The notes under the pieces are model-generated. The model was not told the origin of the DNA and made no database searches. It was given only the letters and a program-made list of their open reading frames with translations. Position numbers and translations under genes: made by a program. From Chryseobacterium salivictor (lineage in GTDB: Bacteria > Bacteroidota > Bacteroidia > Flavobacteriales > Weeksellaceae), in assembly GCF_004359195.1 (NCBI RefSeq), contig NZ_CP037954.1:496001-560000 (forward strand): DNA of 64,000 nt. Direction: 5' to 3'. Positions 19,877 to 50,727 of this stretch are shown piece by piece. How positions within the stretch are numbered: the first letter of the stretch is position 1; each line of letters starts with the position of its first letter.

Positions 19877-22537
19877 TTATTCCGCAAGATTCGGACTCAA
19901 CCATTTTCTTGCGAATTCCAAATCGATTCTTTTTCTTTCAGCATAATTTTTCAACTGGTCCTCTTTAATTTTTCCAACGCCGAAATATTTAGCTTCCGGA
20001 TTGGCGAAATAATAACCCGAAACTGCGGCTGTTGGAAACATGGCTAAACTTTCAGTCAATTCCAATCCGATATTTTCTTTTACTTTTAATAAATTCCAGA
20101 TCGTGGTTTTTTCCAAATGATCGGGACAGGCAGGATAACCGGGAGCCGGACGTATTCCTGAATATTTCTCTGCGATAAGATCCTCATTTTCTAAATTTTC
20201 ATCTTTCGAATAACCCCAGAATTCCGTTCGAACTTTATGATGCAGAAATTCGGCAAACGCTTCTGCCAAACGATCGGCTAATGCCTTAACCATAATGGCA
20301 TTATAATCGTCGCCATCATCGTAATATTTCTGCGCCAATTCTTCGGTTCCAAATCCTGTCGTCACCGCAAAAGCGCCCACATAATCTTTTTTACCGGAAG
20401 ATTCCGGCGCGATAAAATCACTTAAAGCCAAATATTTTTTCCCTGCAGATTTCTTCAGTTGCTGTCTTAAAGTTCGGAATTGTGAGATTTCATTTCCATC
20501 TTTATCATAAAGCAAAATATCATCCTCTTCGTTTGAATTTGCCGGGAAAATTCCAAAAATCCCTTTCGCGGTAAATAATTTTTCATCCAAAATTTTATTT
20601 AATAAAACTTTGGCTTCTTTATACAATTCGGTTGCTTGTTCACCCACAAACTCATCAGTTAAAATCTGAGGAAATTTCCCGTGGAGTTCCCAACTTCTGA
20701 AAAAAGGAGTCCAATCCATAAAATCTAATAATTCTCTTAAATCTTGATTTTCTATAATATAGATTCCTAAAGTTTTAGGTTTTACGGGTTCTTCGTTTTT
20801 CCAGTCGATCGTGAACTTTTGTTTTCTGGCGTCTTCGATAGAAACATATTCTTTTTCAATTTGCCGGTTCAAAAATTTCTCTCGGAAATCTTCATAATCA
20901 ACTTTTAAATCTGCTTTATACTGTTCATTATTATGATCCAAAAGTTGCGAAACTACGCCCACTGCCCGGGAAGCGTCATTGACATGAATAACTGTGTTTC
21001 CATATTTGGGGAAGATTTTCACGGCAGTATGCGCTTTTGAAGTGGTGGCACCACCTATTAACAATGGAAAATTCAGATTTTTTCTTTGCAGTTCTTCCGC
21101 GACGTGAACCATTTCGTCTAAACTCGGTGTAATCAATCCGCTCAAACCGATCACATCAACATTGTGGTCAATCGCTGCCTGAATAATTTTCTCCGCCGGA
21201 ACCATGACACCCAAATCGATGATTTCATAATTGTTGCAGCCTAAAACTACGCTCACAATATTTTTTCCAATATCGTGGACATCGCCTTTTACAGTCGCCA
21301 TCAAAATTTTGCCATTGGGTTTTTGCTTTTCATCTTTTTCCGCTTCAATAAAAGGCTGCAAATAAGCAACGGCTTTTTTCATTACCCGCGCGGATTTTAC
21401 GACTTGCGGCAAAAACATTTTTCCGCTTCCGAAAAGATCGCCGACAACACCCATTCCGTTCATAAGATTAATTTCAATAACACCTAAAGGTCTTTTAGAA
21501 ATAATTCTTGCTTCTTCAACGTCTTCAATAATGAATCGATCAATTCCTTTTACCAAAGCGTGGGTGATTCTATTTTGTAATGGTTCTTTCCGCCATTCTA
21601 ATTCTTCTACAAATTCTTTTTTAGTAGATTTTACCCGCTCGGAATAATCTAAAAGTCGCTCGGTTGCGTCGTCTCTTCTGTCGAGCATCACATCTTCTAC
21701 CAACTCCAGCAACTCTTTCGGAATTTCGTCATACACTTCTAACATCGATGGATTCACAATTCCAATATTCATTCCGGCTCTGATTGCATGATAAAGAAAA
21801 ACGGAATGCATCGCTTCCCGTACATTATCATTTCCACGGAAAGAAAACGAAACATTGGAAACGCCTCCACTCACCGAAACATTTGCCAAATTTCCTCGAA
21901 CCCATTTTGTAGCCTCAATGAAATCCAAAGCGTTTCTGCGGTGTTCTTCCATTCCCGTTGCGACGGGGAAAATATTGAGATCGAAAATAATATCCTCGGA
22001 TGGAAACCCCACTTGGTTCACTAGAATATCGTAGGATCGTTTGCAAATTTCTATTCTTCGGTCGTAATTATCGGCTTGTCCATTTTCGTCGAAAGCCATT
22101 ACAATTACTGCAGCGCCGTATCTTTTTATCGTCTTTGCATGGCTGATAAATTCCTTTTCTCCTTCTTTTAAACTGATGGAATTCACCACACATTTTCCCT
22201 GAACGACCTGTAATCCGGCTTCCAGAATTTCCCATTTTGAGGAATCGATCATCATCGGAATCCGGGAAATATCCGGTTCGGAAGCAATTAAATTCAGGAA
22301 TTTCACCATTGCCATTTTTCCGTCGAGCAATCCATCATCAAAATTAACATCGAGGATTTGTGCGCCGCCATCCACCTGATCGCGGGCAATATTAAGTGCT
22401 TCTGAATAGTTTCCTTCTTTAATGAGTCGAAGAAATTTCTTAGAACCAGCGACATTGGTTCGTTCTCCAACATTAATAAAATTGGATTCCGGCGTTATAA
22501 TTAAAGGTTCGAGACCTGAGAGTTTTAGATATTTCAT
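19877..22537 (-). CDS. metH: Methionine synthase, folate-, cobalamin- and SAM-binding part
   Basis: 886 residues, corresponding to E. coli MetH from about residue 350 to its end. Domains: pterin-binding ([13 protein letters not shown]; about 1-290), cobalamin cap and B12-binding ([12 protein letters not shown] carries the DxHxxG lower ligand; [10 protein letters not shown]; about 300-560) and the reactivation domain ([12 protein letters not shown]; about 570-886). The homocysteine domain is a separate upstream gene. Together they give 1222 residues, close to a full MetH. Split forms are known in Flavobacteriia, so this is not decay. The enzyme moves methyl from 5-methyl-THF through cobalamin to homocysteine. 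Confidence 0.95.
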
Positions 22538-22610
22538 AATATTTTAATGTAACAATATAAAAGTGTAGCAATGTAACGATGAAGACCATGATTGGTAAAT
22601 TGTTACATCA

Positions 22611-23621
22611 CTAAACTGGTACATTTTTTAAACGCGGTACGTAATCCTTCACCAAATCAGCGATGGCTTTGATATGTGGAGGTGTTGTTCCGCAGCAACC
22701 GCCAATAATATTGATGAGACCTTTTTCGGCATATTCGCGAATCTGTTCTGCCATAAATTCCGGGCTTTCATCGTATTGACCGAAAGCATTGGGTAATCCT
22801 GCATTGGGATAAGCAGAAATATAGAAGTCGGAATTTTTGGATAAAGTTTCCAAATAAGGCGTTAATTGTTTTGCTCCCAAAGCGCAGTTTAATCCAACAC
22901 TCAATAAATTTAAATGAGAAACAGAAATTAAAAATGCTTCTGCGGTCTGTCCGCTCAAAGTTCGTCCCGAAGCGTCAGTAATCGTTCCCGAAACCATGAT
23001 TGGAATTTTAATATTTCTTTCTTCCTGAATTTCATCAATCGCAAAAAGCGCTGCTTTCGCATTTAAAGTATCGAAAATTGTTTCGACCAAAAGAATATCT
23101 GAACCTCCGTCTAGAAGTGCTTCTGCCTGTAATTTGTACGCCAGTCGCAATTCATCAAAAGTAACCGCCCGAAAACCCGGATCATTCACATCCGGACTTA
23201 AACTCGCTGTTTTATTGGTCGGACCCATGGACCCTGCCACAAATCTAGGTTTATCAGGATTTTTTAAAGTAAACTCATCGCAAATTTTGCGCGCAATTTT
23301 TGCCGATTCATAATTGAGTTCGTAAACCAATTCTTCCATGTGGTAATCAGCCATAGCGATGGTAGTTCCCGAAAAAGTATTCGTTTCAATAATATCAGCA
23401 TCGGCTTCTAAATACTTTCTGTGAACTTCTTCGATGGCGTGAGGTTGCGTAAGTGAAAGTAAATCGTTGTTTCCTTTTAGAGAATATTCCCAATCTTTGA
23501 ATCGTTCACCTCGGTAATCTTCTTCTGAAAATTTATAGCGTTGAAGCATCGTTCCCATCGCCCCATCGAGGACGAGGATTCTTTCATTTAAGACTTTATA
23601 AAGTGCTGCTGTATTTTTCAT
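22611..23621 (-). CDS. Methionine synthase, homocysteine S-methyltransferase part
   Basis: 336 residues equal to the N-terminal barrel of MetH. Zinc-site cysteines are in LNCALGA and [23 protein letters not shown] opens the fold. It ends in a proper stop, and a 73-base gap with a 10-bp inverted repeat (22547-22556, 22599-22608) precedes the rest of MetH. It should form a complex with that protein. It follows the homoserine dehydrogenase gene by 27 bases. Confidence 0.93.
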
Positions 23622-23648: not shown

Positions 23649-25187
23649 TTATTTATTTTCAGATAATCTCAGAATATCTCCGAACACACCTCTGGCAGTT
23701 ACTTTTGCTCCGGCTCCGGCACCCATAATTACGATCGGATTTTCACCATAACTTTCGGTATAAATTTCAAAAATAGAATCTGAATCTTTTAACTGTCCGA
23801 GGGCAGAATTGGAAGGAACTGAAATTAACTGAACATCGAGTTCTCCTTTTTCTTGTTGCAAATCACCATGTAAATCTCCTACCAAACGCAGAACGTGATT
23901 TTCTTTTTGATTCTTTTTCACTTCATCAAAATGAGCATCCAAAACATCTAAATTGTTTAGGAAATCATTTCTATCGAGATTCAATAAACTTTCCGCAATT
24001 AAACTTTGAACATTGATGTCGCTAAATTCATTACTTAAATCGAGCTCTCTGGCCAGAATTAATAATTTTCGGGCGACATCATTTCCCGATAAATCTTCCC
24101 GGGGATCCGGCTCTGTGAATCCTTGCTCCATTGCTTCTTTCAAAACCGTCGAAAACTTCTCATCACGAACTGAAAAATTATTAAAAATATAACTGAGAGA
24201 ACCGGAGAAAACGCCTTTTATCCTGGTAATATTTTCTCCCGACAAATGCAGTAATTTAATGGTATCAATTAAAGGTAAACCTGCTCCAACATTGGTTTCA
24301 TATAAATATTTTTTATTTCTCTTATTTAAAACACGTCGGAAATCCCGGTATTCAGAAATAGATAAAGTGTTGAAAATCTTGTTGGATGAAACCAGATCGA
24401 AGCCGTTTTCTGCCAGAAGCGTATAGTTTTTCACAAAATCGACACTTGCGGTATTATCGACTACGATTAGGTTTTCGAGTTGATTAACCTGTGAAAACTG
24501 TATTAAGGAATCCATGTTCGATTCATGTTCCGCGACTAAAACGTCCTGTTCCCAGTTTTCATTAAACCCTTTTTTATTAAAGGCGATTTTTCTGGAATTT
24601 GCCACTGCAATAATTTTTAAATCAAGATTTTTACGATTCCTGATTTCTTTTGAATTTTGCAGAACCTGCTCAATCAGCGTCGATCCCACTTTCCCATGTC
24701 CGATCACCGCTAAATGGACCGTTTTAGGTTTTGAATTGATTTCGGCTTCGATGATGTTTTTCGCTTTCTCGTCCTGCAAAGAAGTGACCACGATATTGAT
24801 CCTGTTTTCGGCCGCAATCTGATTCAGAATCAAAGGAAAAATATTATTCCTCGCCAGTTCCGACATGATCTTATTAAAATCTTGGGCAACAAATCCTAAA
24901 ACAGAAACATTATTAATGCTGAAAATCTGACTTACTTTTCCTGATTTTCTTTCTTTTTCAAATTCATCGATCAAACAGTTCACTGCTTTTTCGGAATCAC
25001 TTTCGTTCACCAAAACTGAAATGCCGTTTTCTATTGCCTGTTGGGAAATAACGCCCACGCTGATTCTTGCGTAAGTCAGTGCTTTGAAGATTCTGCCGTC
25101 GATACCGACTTCGCCTAAGAAATCTTTTCCTTCGAATTTGATGATGGATCTGTTTTTTAAAATCTTTATTTCGGTTTTATTTTTCAT
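23649..25187 (-). CDS. Homoserine dehydrogenase with N-terminal ACT domains
   Basis: 512 residues. The first 155 or so form two ACT-like repeats (KFEGKDFLGEVGIDGRIF... and NNVSVLGFVAQDFNKI...) like the regulatory part of the bifunctional aspartokinase/homoserine dehydrogenase ThrA. The kinase catalytic domain is absent. The dehydrogenase follows: Rossmann GHGKVGSTLI, VSSNKIFN, ETNVGAGLPLI, SGSLSYIFN, and the catalytic EPDPREDLSGNDVARK. It reduces aspartate semialdehyde to homoserine, the metX substrate; the ACT part probably senses an end product. Its ATG overlaps the metX stop by 11 bases. Confidence 0.9.
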   Translation of the reverse strand: MKNKTEIKILKNRSIIKFEGKDFLGEVGIDGRIFKALTYARISVGVISQQAIENGISVLVNESDSEKAVNCLIDEFEKERKSGKVSQIFSINNVSVLGFVAQDFNKIMSELARNNIFPLILNQIAAENRINIVVTSLQDEKAKNIIEAEINSKPKTVHLAVIGHGKVGSTLIEQVLQNSKEIRNRKNLDLKIIAVANSRKIAFNKKGFNENWEQDVLVAEHESNMDSLIQFSQVNQLENLIVVDNTASVDFVKNYTLLAENGFDLVSSNKIFNTLSISEYRDFRRVLNKRNKKYLYETNVGAGLPLIDTIKLLHLSGENITRIKGVFSGSLSYIFNNFSVRDEKFSTVLKEAMEQGFTEPDPREDLSGNDVARKLLILARELDLSNEFSDINVQSLIAESLLNLDRNDFLNNLDVLDAHFDEVKKNQKENHVLRLVGDLHGDLQQEKGELDVQLISVPSNSALGQLKDSDSIFEIYTESYGENPIVIMGAGAGAKVTARGVFGDILRLSENK

Positions 25188-26127
25188 GAATGATGGTATT
25201 TAAAATTTGATTAAGTTGGTCGTATTCCATTAAAAAAGCGTCGTGCCCGTGAATGGATTTTATTTCGTGGTAGAAAGTATTTGATTTTGATTCGAGTAAA
25301 AACTGATAACATTTTTGCATATCAAAAGCGGGGAAAAACAAATCGGAATCGACAGCGATGAGATGAATATTGGCTTTGATTTTTTTGAGTTTCTTTTGAT
25401 CTGTATTAATGGTCATCAGCAGATGATTCATCAACCGATAGGCATTCAGACTAAATCTCTCGTTTAATTTTTCACCGTGGAAACTGAGCCAGTCGTGGGA
25501 TTTCAGAATCTGCTTTTCTGGATGAATTTCATTTTTAAATCTTTCATTTAAAGATGCCGGCGTTCGGTAACACAACATGGCGTGAATTCTGGCTTTTTGC
25601 AAAGGCTGATCATTTTGATTCAATAAGAATTGCTGAACCAAGCACTGCGCATGCAACCAATCGGAGGTTTTATAATCACAGGCTACCGGAATGAAACTTT
25701 CTGCCAAGTCGGGTTTTAATGCCAACATTTCCCAGCCAATCGCTCCGCCTAAGGATCCGCCAATCAAAGTATGAAGTCTGGAAATATTTAAAAATGATAA
25801 ACCTTTAAGGAAAATAGCCGCAATATCTTTTGGTGTAAAATCCTGTTCATTTTCAATTAAATTTCCATCGAAACCATTCCCGGGAATATTAAAACAGATG
25901 ACAGAAAAAGTATTGGTATCAATAATTTTATGCTCTCCGATTAAAGAATTCCACCAGCCGTTTTCTCCGGCAACATTCGAATTTCCGGTTAAGGCATGAT
26001 TGACCAAAATAATTGGAGCAGCGTGTAAATCTTTACCATAAAGTTGATACGATAAATCAATATCAAGGATTTTTCCTGATACTAAATGATGATTTTTGAG
26101 TTTGAGATGTTGTAGCGAATTTTTCAA
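25177..26127 (-). CDS. metX: Homoserine O-acetyltransferase family protein (MetX-like)
   Basis: 316 residues, shorter than the usual 350-380. Alpha/beta hydrolase: VNHALTGNSN oxyanion region, nucleophile Ser in GGSLGGAIGW, an acid candidate in VDSDLFFP and the catalytic His in HGHDAFLMEY. It activates homoserine by acylation for sulfur assimilation. No ATG opens the frame; a TTG at 26127 is the only reasonable start. That TTG is inside the 3' arm of a long hairpin downstream of a SAM-I riboswitch, fitting control of initiation. Acetyl versus succinyl specificity is inferred. Confidence 0.88.
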   Translation of the reverse strand: MKNSLQHLKLKNHHLVSGKILDIDLSYQLYGKDLHAAPIILVNHALTGNSNVAGENGWWNSLIGEHKIIDTNTFSVICFNIPGNGFDGNLIENEQDFTPKDIAAIFLKGLSFLNISRLHTLIGGSLGGAIGWEMLALKPDLAESFIPVACDYKTSDWLHAQCLVQQFLLNQNDQPLQKARIHAMLCYRTPASLNERFKNEIHPEKQILKSHDWLSFHGEKLNERFSLNAYRLMNHLLMTINTDQKKLKKIKANIHLIAVDSDLFFPAFDMQKCYQFLLESKSNTFYHEIKSIHGHDAFLMEYDQLNQILNTIIHEK

Positions 26128-26158
26128 TTTTTCTTAAAATTAAAATTGAAAATGCTAC
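26112..26158 (-). promoter_or_regulatory. Hairpin enclosing the metX start
   Basis: On the minus strand GTAGC plus an A/T-rich stretch (upstream arm, about 26142-26158) pairs with a complementary arm (26112-26132) that contains the TTG start. Nothing like a T-run follows. A short TACCT/AGGTA hairpin just upstream (about 26156-26170) competes for the base of this stem, a plausible switching element. Confidence 0.5.
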
Positions 26159-26181
26159 CTGAGAAAGGTAAAATAGGATTC

Positions 26182-26283
26182 TGTTATCTCTTCCCAAATC
26201 GGGATAGAATGTAGCACCTTCTCCGTTTCCGAAGGGTTGCCAAGGTTTCATTGAGTCTAATCTCTCCACCTTTCTTAATAACA
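26182..26283 (-). ncRNA. SAM-I (S-box) riboswitch
   Basis: On the minus strand the conserved core is present in order: GGTGGAG (26264-26270), ATGAAACC (26244-26251), GGCAACC (26235-26241), AAGGTGCTA (26212-26220). P1 closes as TGTTAT (26278-26283) with ATAACA (26182-26187). Length 102 nt. It binds S-adenosylmethionine and should turn off the metX-hom-metH-metF operon when SAM is plentiful. Confidence 0.93.
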
Positions 26284-26287
26284 TTTT

Positions 26288-26319
26288 CAAATATGTAAAT
26301 GAACTTATTTCGGTGCAAA
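26288..26319 (-). promoter_or_regulatory. Promoter of the methionine operon
   Basis: On the minus strand TTTG (26316-26319), 20 bases, CATATTTG (26288-26295; one mismatch to TAnnTTTG). It would start transcription a few bases before the riboswitch P1. Confidence 0.6.
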
Positions 26320-26400
26320 GGAAAGCATTAAAATATAATCTCACAAATTTTAGGAATCTATTTTATTCCTTAATTTCGCACCAGAAATTATTTTAGAAAG

Positions 26401-29022
26401 ATGACGGAGAAAGAAAGAATGCTCGATGAGAACTGGAAAACGTGGGGACCGTACGTAAGCAACAGACAATGGGGAACGGTTCGGGAAGATTACAGCAATG
26501 ATGGAAATGCCTGGGGATATACAACTTACAACCAGGCCATCAGCAGAGCCTATCGCTGGAGTGAGGACGGAATCGCAGGAATCTGTGACTCTAAACAAAG
26601 ATTATGTTTTGCTTTTTCATTTTGGAACCGCAAAGACAAAATGATCAAAGAACGTTTCTTTGGATTGAGTAATCATGAAGGAAATCATGGCGAGGATTTA
26701 AAAGAACTCTACTATTATCTGGATAATACACCGACCCATTCTTACATGAAAATGGTGTATAAATATCCGGTCAGTGAATTTCCTTATGACTATTTAATTG
26801 CAGAAAACGCAAGGAGATCGAAGCACGATCCGGAATTTGAGTTGATCGACACCGGGATATTTAATGACAATAATTACTTTGATCTTTTCATTGAATATGC
26901 TAAAATAAATCATGATGATTATCTAATCCGTGTCACGGCAGTAAACCGGAGCCGTCACAAAGCGCCGCTTGTTATTTTACCAACAATCTGGTTTAGAAAC
27001 AACTGGAACTGGGGCTTCGGAGATTATCAACCTCAACTAAAATCTTCGGCAACCGGCGACATTGAAATTCATCATGAGTCTTTACCCGTCATCAAATTAT
27101 ATTCCCGGGATCAAAATACAGAAGCTCTTTTTTGCAATAACGAAAGTAATCCGGCTACAATTCATGGCGCGAGCAGTGAACCAAAATACTATAAAGACGG
27201 CATCAATAATTTTATAATTCATGACGACCGAAATGCTGTAAATCCTGACCAAACCGGAACTAAAGCCTGTTTCGCAATCGATACAGAAATTGAAGCCGGC
27301 GAAAGCAAAACTTTCGATTTCCGGTTGAGTCCGCATGATATGAAAAATGCTTTCTTTGACTTCGACGACGTTTTTAGTTTAAGAAAAAAAGAAGCCGACG
27401 AATACTACCAAGGAATCCAAAAAGAAATTACCGATGAAGAAGAAAAAATGATTCAAAGACAGGCATTTGCAGGACTATTATGGAACAAACAGTTCTACCA
27501 TTATAATGTCTCTAAATGGCTGAAAGGAGAGCCGAAACTGAATGCCCCAAGAAATTTCCATCATCATGTGAGAAATAAAGAATGGGAACACATGCAGAAT
27601 AAGGACATTATTTCGATGCCCGACAAATGGGAATATCCGTGGTTTGCGACGTGGGATTTGGCGTTTCATTGTGTCCCCTTTGCTATTCTGGATTCCGGTT
27701 TTGCGAAACAACAATTAAGGTTACTCACTAAAGAATGGTACATTCATCCGAACGGACAATTGCCGGCTTATGAGTGGGATTTCAGCGACGTCAATCCGCC
27801 TGTTCATGCGTGGTCCACTTTCCGGGTTTTTAAAATTGACCAGATGATCAACGGAAAACCCGATGTTCCTTTTCTGGAAAGTGTTTTTCAAAAATTATTA
27901 TTGAATTTTACCTGGTGGGTGAACCGAAAAGATAAAAAAGGAAACAATGTTTTTGGCGGCGGATTTTTAGGCTTGGATAATATCGGTGCTTTTGACCGTA
28001 ATATGGAATTCAAAAACGGCGACCATTTAGAGCAAGCCGACGGCACGAGTTGGATGGCGATGTTTGCTCTGAACATGATGCGGATTTCAATGGAACTGGC
28101 ACAGTACAATCCGATTTATGAAGATATGGCGATTAAATTTTTCGAGCATTATCTCTATATCGCCGAAGCCATGGAAAATATCGGCGAAACGAAAAATGGT
28201 TTGTGGAATGACGAAGACGGTTTTTTCTACGACCTTCTGCAATTGAACAATGGCGATTCTATTTCCTTAAAATTGAGAAGTATTGTTGGGTTAATTCCTT
28301 TGTTTGCCGTAGAAATTGTAGAACACAGTATGCTGGAAAAACTGCCTAATTTTCTGGATAGAATGCAGTGGATTCTTAAAAACAAACCGCATTTGGCTGA
28401 TTTGGTTTCACATTGGGAAGTAGAAGGAAAAGGCGGAAAACACCTGATGAGCATTCTGCGAAAAACCCGGCTGAAAAGAGTTCTGTGCCGAATGGTTGAT
28501 GAAAATGAATTCTTATCAGATTACGGAATCCGTTCGATGTCGAAAATTTATGAAAATGAGCCCTATCTCTTCACCGTCGATGGCAAAGATTTCAAAGTGA
28601 AATATACTCCGGCAGAAAGTGATAGCAGCATGTTCGGGGGTAACAGCAACTGGCGCGGCCCCATTTGGTTCCCAATTAATTTTCTGATTGTAGAGAGTTT
28701 ACAGCGTTTCCATTATTATTATGGCGACAGTTTACAGATCGAATATCCTACCAACAGCGGAAAAAGCCGGAATCTCGATTTTATCGCTACCGACTTGAGC
28801 AAAAGACTCTACTCGATTTTCAGTAAAGATGAAAACGGGAACAGGCCTTTCAATGGCGGAAATGATCTGTTGAACCACAATGAATTTTTCAAAAACTACA
28901 TTATGTTTCACGAATATTTCAACGGTGATACGGGCGAAGGAATTGGTGCATCTCACCAAACCGGCTGGACGGCGACGATTGCAAAATTGATACAGCCGAG
29001 AATGGGTTCGCGGCCGAGGTAA
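26401..29022 (+). CDS. GH63-like glucosidase
   Basis: 873 residues, cytosolic (no signal peptide). The N-terminal half (WGPYVSNRQWGTVREDYS...) is a beta sandwich; from about residue 380 an (alpha/alpha)6 barrel follows with WEYPWFATWDLAFHCVPFA (likely general acid Asp), PAYEWDFSDVNPPVHAW and, near the end, GASHQTGWTATIAKLI. This is the MGH1-type/GH63 family, whose bacterial members cleave alpha-glucosides such as mannosyl- or glucosylglycerate or nigerose-type linkages. Exact substrate unknown. It is divergent from the metX operon and has no sugar-uptake genes beside it. The 122-bp repeat with its hairpin forms its 3' end. Confidence 0.8.
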   Translation: MTEKERMLDENWKTWGPYVSNRQWGTVREDYSNDGNAWGYTTYNQAISRAYRWSEDGIAGICDSKQRLCFAFSFWNRKDKMIKERFFGLSNHEGNHGEDLKELYYYLDNTPTHSYMKMVYKYPVSEFPYDYLIAENARRSKHDPEFELIDTGIFNDNNYFDLFIEYAKINHDDYLIRVTAVNRSRHKAPLVILPTIWFRNNWNWGFGDYQPQLKSSATGDIEIHHESLPVIKLYSRDQNTEALFCNNESNPATIHGASSEPKYYKDGINNFIIHDDRNAVNPDQTGTKACFAIDTEIEAGESKTFDFRLSPHDMKNAFFDFDDVFSLRKKEADEYYQGIQKEITDEEEKMIQRQAFAGLLWNKQFYHYNVSKWLKGEPKLNAPRNFHHHVRNKEWEHMQNKDIISMPDKWEYPWFATWDLAFHCVPFAILDSGFAKQQLRLLTKEWYIHPNGQLPAYEWDFSDVNPPVHAWSTFRVFKIDQMINGKPDVPFLESVFQKLLLNFTWWVNRKDKKGNNVFGGGFLGLDNIGAFDRNMEFKNGDHLEQADGTSWMAMFALNMMRISMELAQYNPIYEDMAIKFFEHYLYIAEAMENIGETKNGLWNDEDGFFYDLLQLNNGDSISLKLRSIVGLIPLFAVEIVEHSMLEKLPNFLDRMQWILKNKPHLADLVSHWEVEGKGGKHLMSILRKTRLKRVLCRMVDENEFLSDYGIRSMSKIYENEPYLFTVDGKDFKVKYTPAESDSSMFGGNSNWRGPIWFPINFLIVESLQRFHYYYGDSLQIEYPTNSGKSRNLDFIATDLSKRLYSIFSKDENGNRPFNGGNDLLNHNEFFKNYIMFHEYFNGDTGEGIGASHQTGWTATIAKLIQPRMGSRPR

Positions 29023-39262: not shown

Positions 39263-39358
39263 CGGTAAGTTGATTTTATTTTTTATTCTAAAGACATAAT
39301 CGTCGCAAAGTATTTTTAGAGAGGTTGCCTTTGAAAAAAAACCTGAAAGTTGTTTTAG

Positions 39359-39426
39359 CCCCGATGGAAACGGCATCCTTTTTCTTTTCACGACAGTGAA
39401 AGAAAAAGATATAGTGGACAGCGGGA
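39359..39426. repeat. Imperfect long hairpin element
   Basis: The inner stem pairs ATCCTTTTTCTTTTCAC (39375-39391) with GTGAAAGAAAAAGAT (39396-39410), two bulged bases, loop GACA. Symmetric outer pairs CCCG, TG, AC and ATC (39360-39377 with 39408-39425) extend it. From memory this resembles a hairpin element scattered through flavobacterial genomes; I cannot confirm that here. It fills the 302-bp gap between the HAD gene and speA together with repeat copy 2. The remaining 96 bases (39263-39358) show nothing. Confidence 0.55.
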
Positions 39427-39436
39427 CCGAAAAATA

Positions 39437-50393: not shown

Positions 50394-50727
50394 CCCACAA
50401 GAAAAACTATAAGCCGGATTCTGTACATTGACCGAAGTCAAAATGCCTGTTATTTATCTGCGCTTTACATTGCTGCAAAACTTTTGCTGTTTACCCCTCG
50501 GTTTTTGGAGCGAGCCGCTCCTATTTTCATTGCTGAAAAAATCCGATATACTTAACATTGCACCGCAAAGAGTTTACCTGGTTTCACTATAAATTAATAT
50601 ACATACTTTCTGTTGCACTTGTCCTGATCTCGCGACCGACGGATGTTATCCGCTTTGCTGCTCTATGGTGTCCGGACTTTCCTACCCCCAACGAATCGGG
50701 AATCAACAAGCCGTTTTTCTTGTGGGA
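50394..50727 (-). ncRNA. rnpB: RNase P RNA (bacterial type A-like)
   Basis: Catalytic RNA that trims the 5' ends of tRNA precursors. On the minus strand the 5' part has GGAAAGTCCGGACACC (CR I) and the 3' part ACAGAATCCGGCTTAT (CR V hallmark). P1 is a 13-bp helix: CCCACAAGAAAAA near 50714-50726 with its complement 50394-50406. Between are the GATCAGGACAAGTGCAACAGAAAG region and the GAGCGGCTCGCTCC-type hairpin. Ends are set from P1; about 334 nt. A T-run follows P1. Confidence 0.95.

Follow-up and report, generated by a model that had tools for sequence, protein, structure and literature searches.

The metX operon and its leader

The window analyzed here, a stretch of 64,000 nucleotides (nt) from the genome of Chryseobacterium salivictor, carries on its minus strand four methionine genes in the order metX, ACT-homoserine dehydrogenase, metH N-terminal part, and metH C-terminal part. 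The features of this operon and its leader, in the direction of transcription and in window coordinates, are as follows.

26316..26347, minus strand: probable Bacteroidota-type promoter, read from the sequence
26292..26304, minus strand: boxA-like element GTTCATTTACATA between promoter and aptamer, conserved in metX leaders
26268..26290, minus strand: predicted antisequestor 5' strand TTGAAAATGTTATTAAGAAAGGT (leader, P1 5' strand, junction, and 5' part of P2)
26181..26284, minus strand: SAM-I (S-box) aptamer (Rfam RF00162, 74.7 bits, E 1.1e-15)
26156..26170, minus strand: small hairpin TACC...GGTA, probably accessory, its stem kept with other letters
26146..26169, minus strand: shared arm ACCTTTCTCAGGTAGCATTTTCAA, predicted partner of the leader (ON) or of the start region (OFF)
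26112..26158, minus strand: long, AU-rich sequestor hairpin burying the metX start
26125..26127, minus strand: metX start codon TTG, predicted OFF-state partner of the shared arm's CAA
25177..26127, minus strand: metX, homoserine O-acetyltransferase (TIGR01392, E 7.7e-44, below the equivalog cut-off)
23649..25187, minus strand: ACT part and homoserine dehydrogenase without the kinase domain (matches NF006959 positions 309-814)
22611..23621, minus strand: metH N-terminal part (NF007024 positions 8-336 of 1234)
19877..22537, minus strand: metH C-terminal part (TIGR02082, 1230 bits)

Judged by its sequence, the host belongs to the order Flavobacteriales (Bacteroidota) and is no firmicute. The nearest named metX proteins are those of Kaistella (83 to 84% identity), followed by those of Chryseobacterium, Cloacibacterium, Riemerella, Elizabethkingia, and Flavobacterium. 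The methionine synthase MetH is encoded by two adjacent genes of 336 and 886 amino acids (window 19877-23621, minus strand). Many Flavobacteriaceae (locus L166) have metX inside an open frame of ~1,130 amino acids that runs on into kinase-like sequence, suggesting a fusion, and in some Chryseobacterium-type genomes metX continues in the same open frame (829 amino acids) past a single TAG (G055:C2:129590-130501, G121:C1:3015341-3016279, and G141:C25:324779-325702), suggesting a recent split or a possible readthrough site. Elsewhere the window holds a Flavo-1 RNA (RF01705, 72.9 bits, 39353-39432, plus strand) and a bacterial class A RNase P RNA (196 bits, 50394-50722, minus strand).

The aptamer was scored with the Rfam RF00162 covariance model, and no custom model was needed: the match covers model positions 1-108 of 108 and reaches 74.7 bits against a gathering score of 44.4. 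It is an ordinary member of RF00162, which bears out the S-box aptamer recognized in an earlier, sequence-only reading of this DNA, and it sits upstream of metX, homoserine dehydrogenase, and metH on the same strand. By its family, it would be expected to bind SAM. Ahead of it lie a -33-like TTTG (26344-26347) and a -7-like TTCCTTTG (26316-26323; consensus TAnnTTTG). Boxes of the TAnnTTTG type, such as TATCTTTG, occur at equal distance in relatives, and the segment is probably a Bacteroidota-type promoter.

A conserved hairpin encloses the only start codon of metX

The TTG at 26127 is the only start of the metX frame; an in-frame TAA lies just 5' of it, and the next ~30 codons contain no ATG, GTG, or TTG. 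The hairpin that encloses it (26112-26158) has a folding energy of -11.8 kcal/mol (z = -4.3), which was matched by 0 of 200 shuffles, and both hairpin and start lie exactly where the sequence-only reading had put them. In 21 of 22 congeneric loci, and in most loci of the family, TTG occupies the same place of the frame and of the stem, and in the genus the stem is likewise conserved. The exception, L020, reads ATT where the others align TTG and offers a possible GTG 9 nt further on, within the same hairpin, from which its metX probably starts. Translation might begin elsewhere (at AUU, at CUG, or further down), leaving the buried TTG uncontrolled; L020 and the difficulty of seeing non-canonical starts in sequence speak for this, but the constancy of TTG, and the ATG or GTG that occupies the same hairpin where TTG is missing, make it very improbable.

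No terminator-like site was found in positions 25900-26500, in agreement with the earlier reading that no T-run terminator follows P1, and the intrinsic terminator of a classical S-box is accordingly absent from this interval. The earlier comparison with firmicutes was right in that most firmicute S-boxes attenuate transcription (PMC2258182), but it was drawn for a host that belongs to Flavobacteriales. Attenuation would require a SAM-bound terminator composed of the small hairpin and Ts, or Rho acting on the untranslated leader, with the start hairpin as a by-product. Besides the firmicute precedent, it can appeal to the metY switch of the same genome, in which a 12-bp stem is followed by a T-run, and to Chryseobacterium-type loci in which the ATTTTCAAT after GCCAT/GTGGC weakly matches a terminator. 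We consider it unlikely, given that the metX locus lacks such a site and that attenuation fails to explain why the start-codon stem is conserved and, elsewhere, rebuilt around ATG or GTG, or why the switch was rewired to metH (see below), although Rho could act secondarily at this leader.

The sequence-only reading had also proposed that a short TACCT/AGGTA hairpin might trade places with the base of the start-burying stem. The hairpin is indeed present, and base changes in most loci preserve its stem (TTACC/GGTAG, CCAT/GTGG, CTACA/TGTAG, and TTACATA/TATGTAG in relatives), but it appears to be accessory and not the main switching partner; in the ON state it may steady the base of the arm.

The start-hiding arm has a predicted competing partner in the leader

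Computation shows not only the aptamer and the two rival helices but also that these helices are conserved and have been rebuilt in other lineages. In the minimum free energy fold of the whole leader, the start hairpin gives way to a long helix that joins 26268-26290 to 26146-26169, in which TTGAAAATGTTATT-A-AGAAAGGT (26290-26268) pairs with ACCTTTCT..GGTAGCATTTTCAA (26169-26146), and the same strands pair in duplex tests. The 3' part of this shared arm (26146-26158) is the 5' arm of the start-burying hairpin, and its sequence CATTTTCAA pairs either with TTGAAAATG of the leader or with the TTGAAAA that holds the start codon; the metX start region practically repeats the leader sequence. In these models, the main competing structure is a long antisequestor formed by the leader and the P1 and P2 5' strands, which the sequence-only reading had overlooked.

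Over 82 distinct leaders from across the order, pairing of the leader and P1 5' strand with the expression platform averaged -20.9 kcal/mol (z = -5.5; all z-scores of the strand tests are relative to dinucleotide shuffles). Classical S-boxes switch with the P1 3' strand. When that strand was tried as antisequestor or antiterminator in the same 82 leaders, it gave a z-score of +0.27, nothing beyond chance, and the classical arrangement was not recovered. The result for the 5' side holds by group, in Kaistella-, Chryseobacterium-, Riemerella-, and Flavobacterium-type loci and in a further genus (g9), and pairing is weakest in four mixed loci of group f3, where up to 6 of 60 shuffles were as good. 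Combining leaders and platforms across groups gave a mixed picture: for Flavobacterium-type platforms the best partner is the own leader (one Riemerella-type combination is as good), but when the groups are close, swapping in a foreign leader or platform can give pairing no worse than the native combination.

Conservation was measured on an alignment of 55 sequences from the family, as raw percentages that ignore common descent. Antisequestor pairs are kept in 97.2% of cells, falling to 35 to 51% when the partner is slid by 1 to 3 columns, and sequestor pairs are kept in 89.7%, falling to 34 to 52%. In the sequestor, 15 cells have changed on both sides, compared with 3.4 in shuffles. The antisequestor covaries little within the family (one pair with a double change) and is too conserved there for informative covariation, for which reason the order-wide duplex, strand, and opening-energy tests were used.

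P1 formation is predicted to make the start region harder to open

The cost of opening positions -6 to +9 around the start was computed with and without P1 enforced in the 55 family loci. Enforcing P1 raised this cost in 54 of 55 loci, from a median of 3.9 to 7.6 kcal/mol, the exception being L020. The cost rose as well in 13 of 13 further loci (eight Flavobacterium-type TTG starts, one ATG, one GTG, and three metH ATGs). With shuffled platforms the change was about 0, and the real value was reached by 0 of 40 shuffles in each of five loci. In silico, and against this shuffle control, P1 makes the start region less accessible, as is expected of a SAM-I riboswitch that acts on translation.

In C. 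salivictor itself, opening the start costs 4.5 kcal/mol in the ON state and 7.3 kcal/mol with P1 enforced. The UUG of the modeled ON state is still held in a weak AU hairpin, with an unpaired probability of 0.01, so the switch may leak or depend on cotranscriptional folding. Because the antisequestor form is ~11 kcal/mol better than the P1 form when no ligand is present, the OFF state must rely on early, ligand-locked folding.

Start burial is rebuilt with other letters in other lineages

The same arrangement recurs with different sequences and start codons. In Riemerella-type loci the pair is GAAATG/CATTTC, a base shorter on each side, and an ATG is buried in GCAACATT/AATGTTGC; in loci of the Cloacibacterium and Amniculibacterium types, GTAGCAT/ATGCTAC encloses a buried ATG. 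In Flavobacterium-type loci, GAAATGTTATAAAGAAAG pairs with CTTTCTTTCTAATATTTC and the TTG is buried by TTTCCA/TGGAAA. The buried start is an ATG at L125 and a GTG at L122, which belong to two further genera. As far as sequence comparison can show, the start-hiding design is old and has been rebuilt with different letters in different lineages.

Three congeneric loci (L005, L008, and L024) have lost metX and the homoserine dehydrogenase gene, and the platform abuts the metH N-terminal part. At L008 the new start lies in AATTGAAATGCTAC, which is complementary to GTAGCATTTTCAATT save for one bulge; here the start codon hidden by the same arm is the ATG of metH. With P1 enforced, the opening cost at the metH start rises from 6.3 to 10.5, from 3.7 to 8.6, and from 5.0 to 9.2 kcal/mol in the three loci.

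These stems might be conserved merely through the shared descent of coding sequence, start context, and leader, with no switch beyond the aptamer. In its favor, most positions are invariant within the genus, and covariation there is therefore weak. It is nevertheless the least probable of those considered, since the pairings persist between genera and between families although letters, lengths, and start codons differ, two-sided changes in the sequestor exceed those in shuffles, and the pairings survive replacement of the downstream gene (metH for metX).

The riboswitch is also kept ahead of broken or deleted metX genes at four loci of the genus (L006, L019, L022, and L031) and one of the family (L087). 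These cases count against the model, as a start would be buried there without evident purpose, and can be explained within it only as decay in progress.

A boxA-like element in the leader

The element GTTCATTTACATA resembles GATCATTGACATA in the rrn leaders of the same genome, closely enough to count as boxA-like in sequence. The rrn leaders of a relative carry GTTCATTGACATA, and the rrn leader motif of the family is G[A/T]TCATTGA-, 86 to 98 nt ahead of the 16S start motif (rrn leaders L111 to L114). The boxA-like motif is present in 47 of 74 distinct SAM leaders of the set, compared with 0.18 expected, and the metY SAM-I leader of the same genome has GTTCTTTAAAACAT (L001, about 1484-1497). 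It is absent from nearly all TPP and cobalamin leaders examined, and mostly absent from those SAM leaders of other genera in which promoter and aptamer adjoin. A search of the C. salivictor genome for the leader motif returned the metX locus itself as the best match; the remaining two-mismatch matches numbered 22, versus 8 in a reversed control, and the rrn leaders were not among them.

The element may serve to recruit NusB-NusE as a counter to Rho, or it may tether the leader so that the long-range helix can form. One version of the second option, which we regard as rather doubtful, is that NusB-NusE bound to boxA, which lies immediately ahead of the antisequestor strand, would tether the 5' leader to RNA polymerase, where it would await its partner ~110 to 130 nt downstream. 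On this reading, the leader would beat P1 unless SAM had locked the aptamer. If true, this would mean that a riboswitch borrows the rRNA tethering machinery for a long-range switch by its 5' strand, in a phylum without Shine-Dalgarno sequences. The literature covered, which mostly excludes subscription journals, yielded no account of a boxA in a riboswitch leader. An rRNA-like boxA in a metX leader raises a directly testable question.

Proposed mechanism and comparison with known switches

We infer the direction of regulation and the effect on translation from the structures described above. The most probable reading, to which we assign a probability of roughly 0.8, is an OFF SAM-I riboswitch that acts on translation initiation by burying the start codon and is switched from the 5' side. 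When SAM is scarce, P1 would not hold, and the leader with the P1 and P2 5' strands (UUGAAAAUGUUAUU-A-AGAAAGGU) would pair with ACCUUUCU..GGUAGCAUUUUCAA, an antisequestor helix that keeps the start-hiding arm occupied. Binding of SAM would let P1 form and take its 5' strand out of play. With the leader strand thus removed, the arm GUAGCAUUUUCAAUUUU would be free to fold onto AAAAUUGAAAA...GCUAC, placing its CAA on the UUG start codon; metX would not be initiated, and probably neither would the genes translated after it in the operon. The central proposal of the sequence-only reading, that a SAM-I riboswitch controls metX translation through a buried TTG, thus gains support from the conserved start and stem, from burial in other lineages with other letters and starts, and from the lack of a terminator.

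This reading bears on the choice of start codon. According to automated start calls, and ignoring common descent, metX genes with a directly adjacent riboswitch have 65 non-ATG and 11 ATG starts (65 of 76 loci non-ATG), as opposed to 6 and 26 for those without one (6 of 32 non-ATG). We propose that UUG is kept because the CAA of the hiding arm must also match the UUG of the leader. The TTG start looks secondary to the base pairing of the switch, and a weak start may also help tight repression.

The metX switch shares with the firmicute S-box (RF00162) its aptamer family, its ligand class (by family), its association with methionine genes, and, as predicted, its OFF logic. It differs from that system in having a start-codon sequestor in place of a terminator, and in its predicted switching strand, which comes from the leader and the 5' halves of P1 and P2 and not from the P1 3' strand. 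In the Xanthomonas campestris met operon, a SAM-I riboswitch acts mainly on translation, hides both Shine-Dalgarno (SD) sequence and AUG, and senses uncharged tRNA-fMet (PMC7270179); in the literature covered, it is the only translational SAM-I riboswitch with experiments that we found. It resembles the metX switch in its SAM-I aptamer, its Gram-negative host, and a start codon hidden in the SAM-bound state (here predicted), but an SD sequence and an AUG are hidden there, whereas the metX locus has no SD sequence and a UUG start. By default, Barrick and Breaker (2007) placed most riboswitches from outside the firmicutes in a translation-attenuation class, with the hiding structure unpredicted (PMC2258182). 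That class would include the metX locus, which has no terminator and an aptamer well upstream of the start; unlike the default members, the metX locus is given a hiding structure here, and one compared across relatives. In the Flavobacteriales, no description of SAM-I expression platforms was found in literature that for the most part does not extend to subscription journals.

The metY SAM-I switch (L001) has the same aptamer family, host, and boxA-like leader as that of metX but a classical terminator stem and T-run, so the aptamer alone does not dictate the platform. Terminator and start-burying mechanisms appear to coexist in one cell. Immediately behind the metY terminator (L001, 1640-1695), part of its stem sequence is repeated (GCTCTTTCGACAAG).

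Bacteroidota lack Shine-Dalgarno sequences, and in Flavobacterium johnsoniae translation is tuned by structure around the start codon (PMC6847099), making the start codon and its flanks the natural target for a translational riboswitch. The picture of translational riboswitches as hiding the SD sequence cannot apply in this phylum. The metX locus offers instead a testable scheme in which the start codon is hidden, the switch is thrown by the 5' side of P1, and base pairs set the identity of the start codon. This scheme would account for the conserved UUG, and it predicts double mutants that restore regulation; with UUG, GUG, and AUG starts, and with metX or metH downstream, the relatives provide a natural experimental series.
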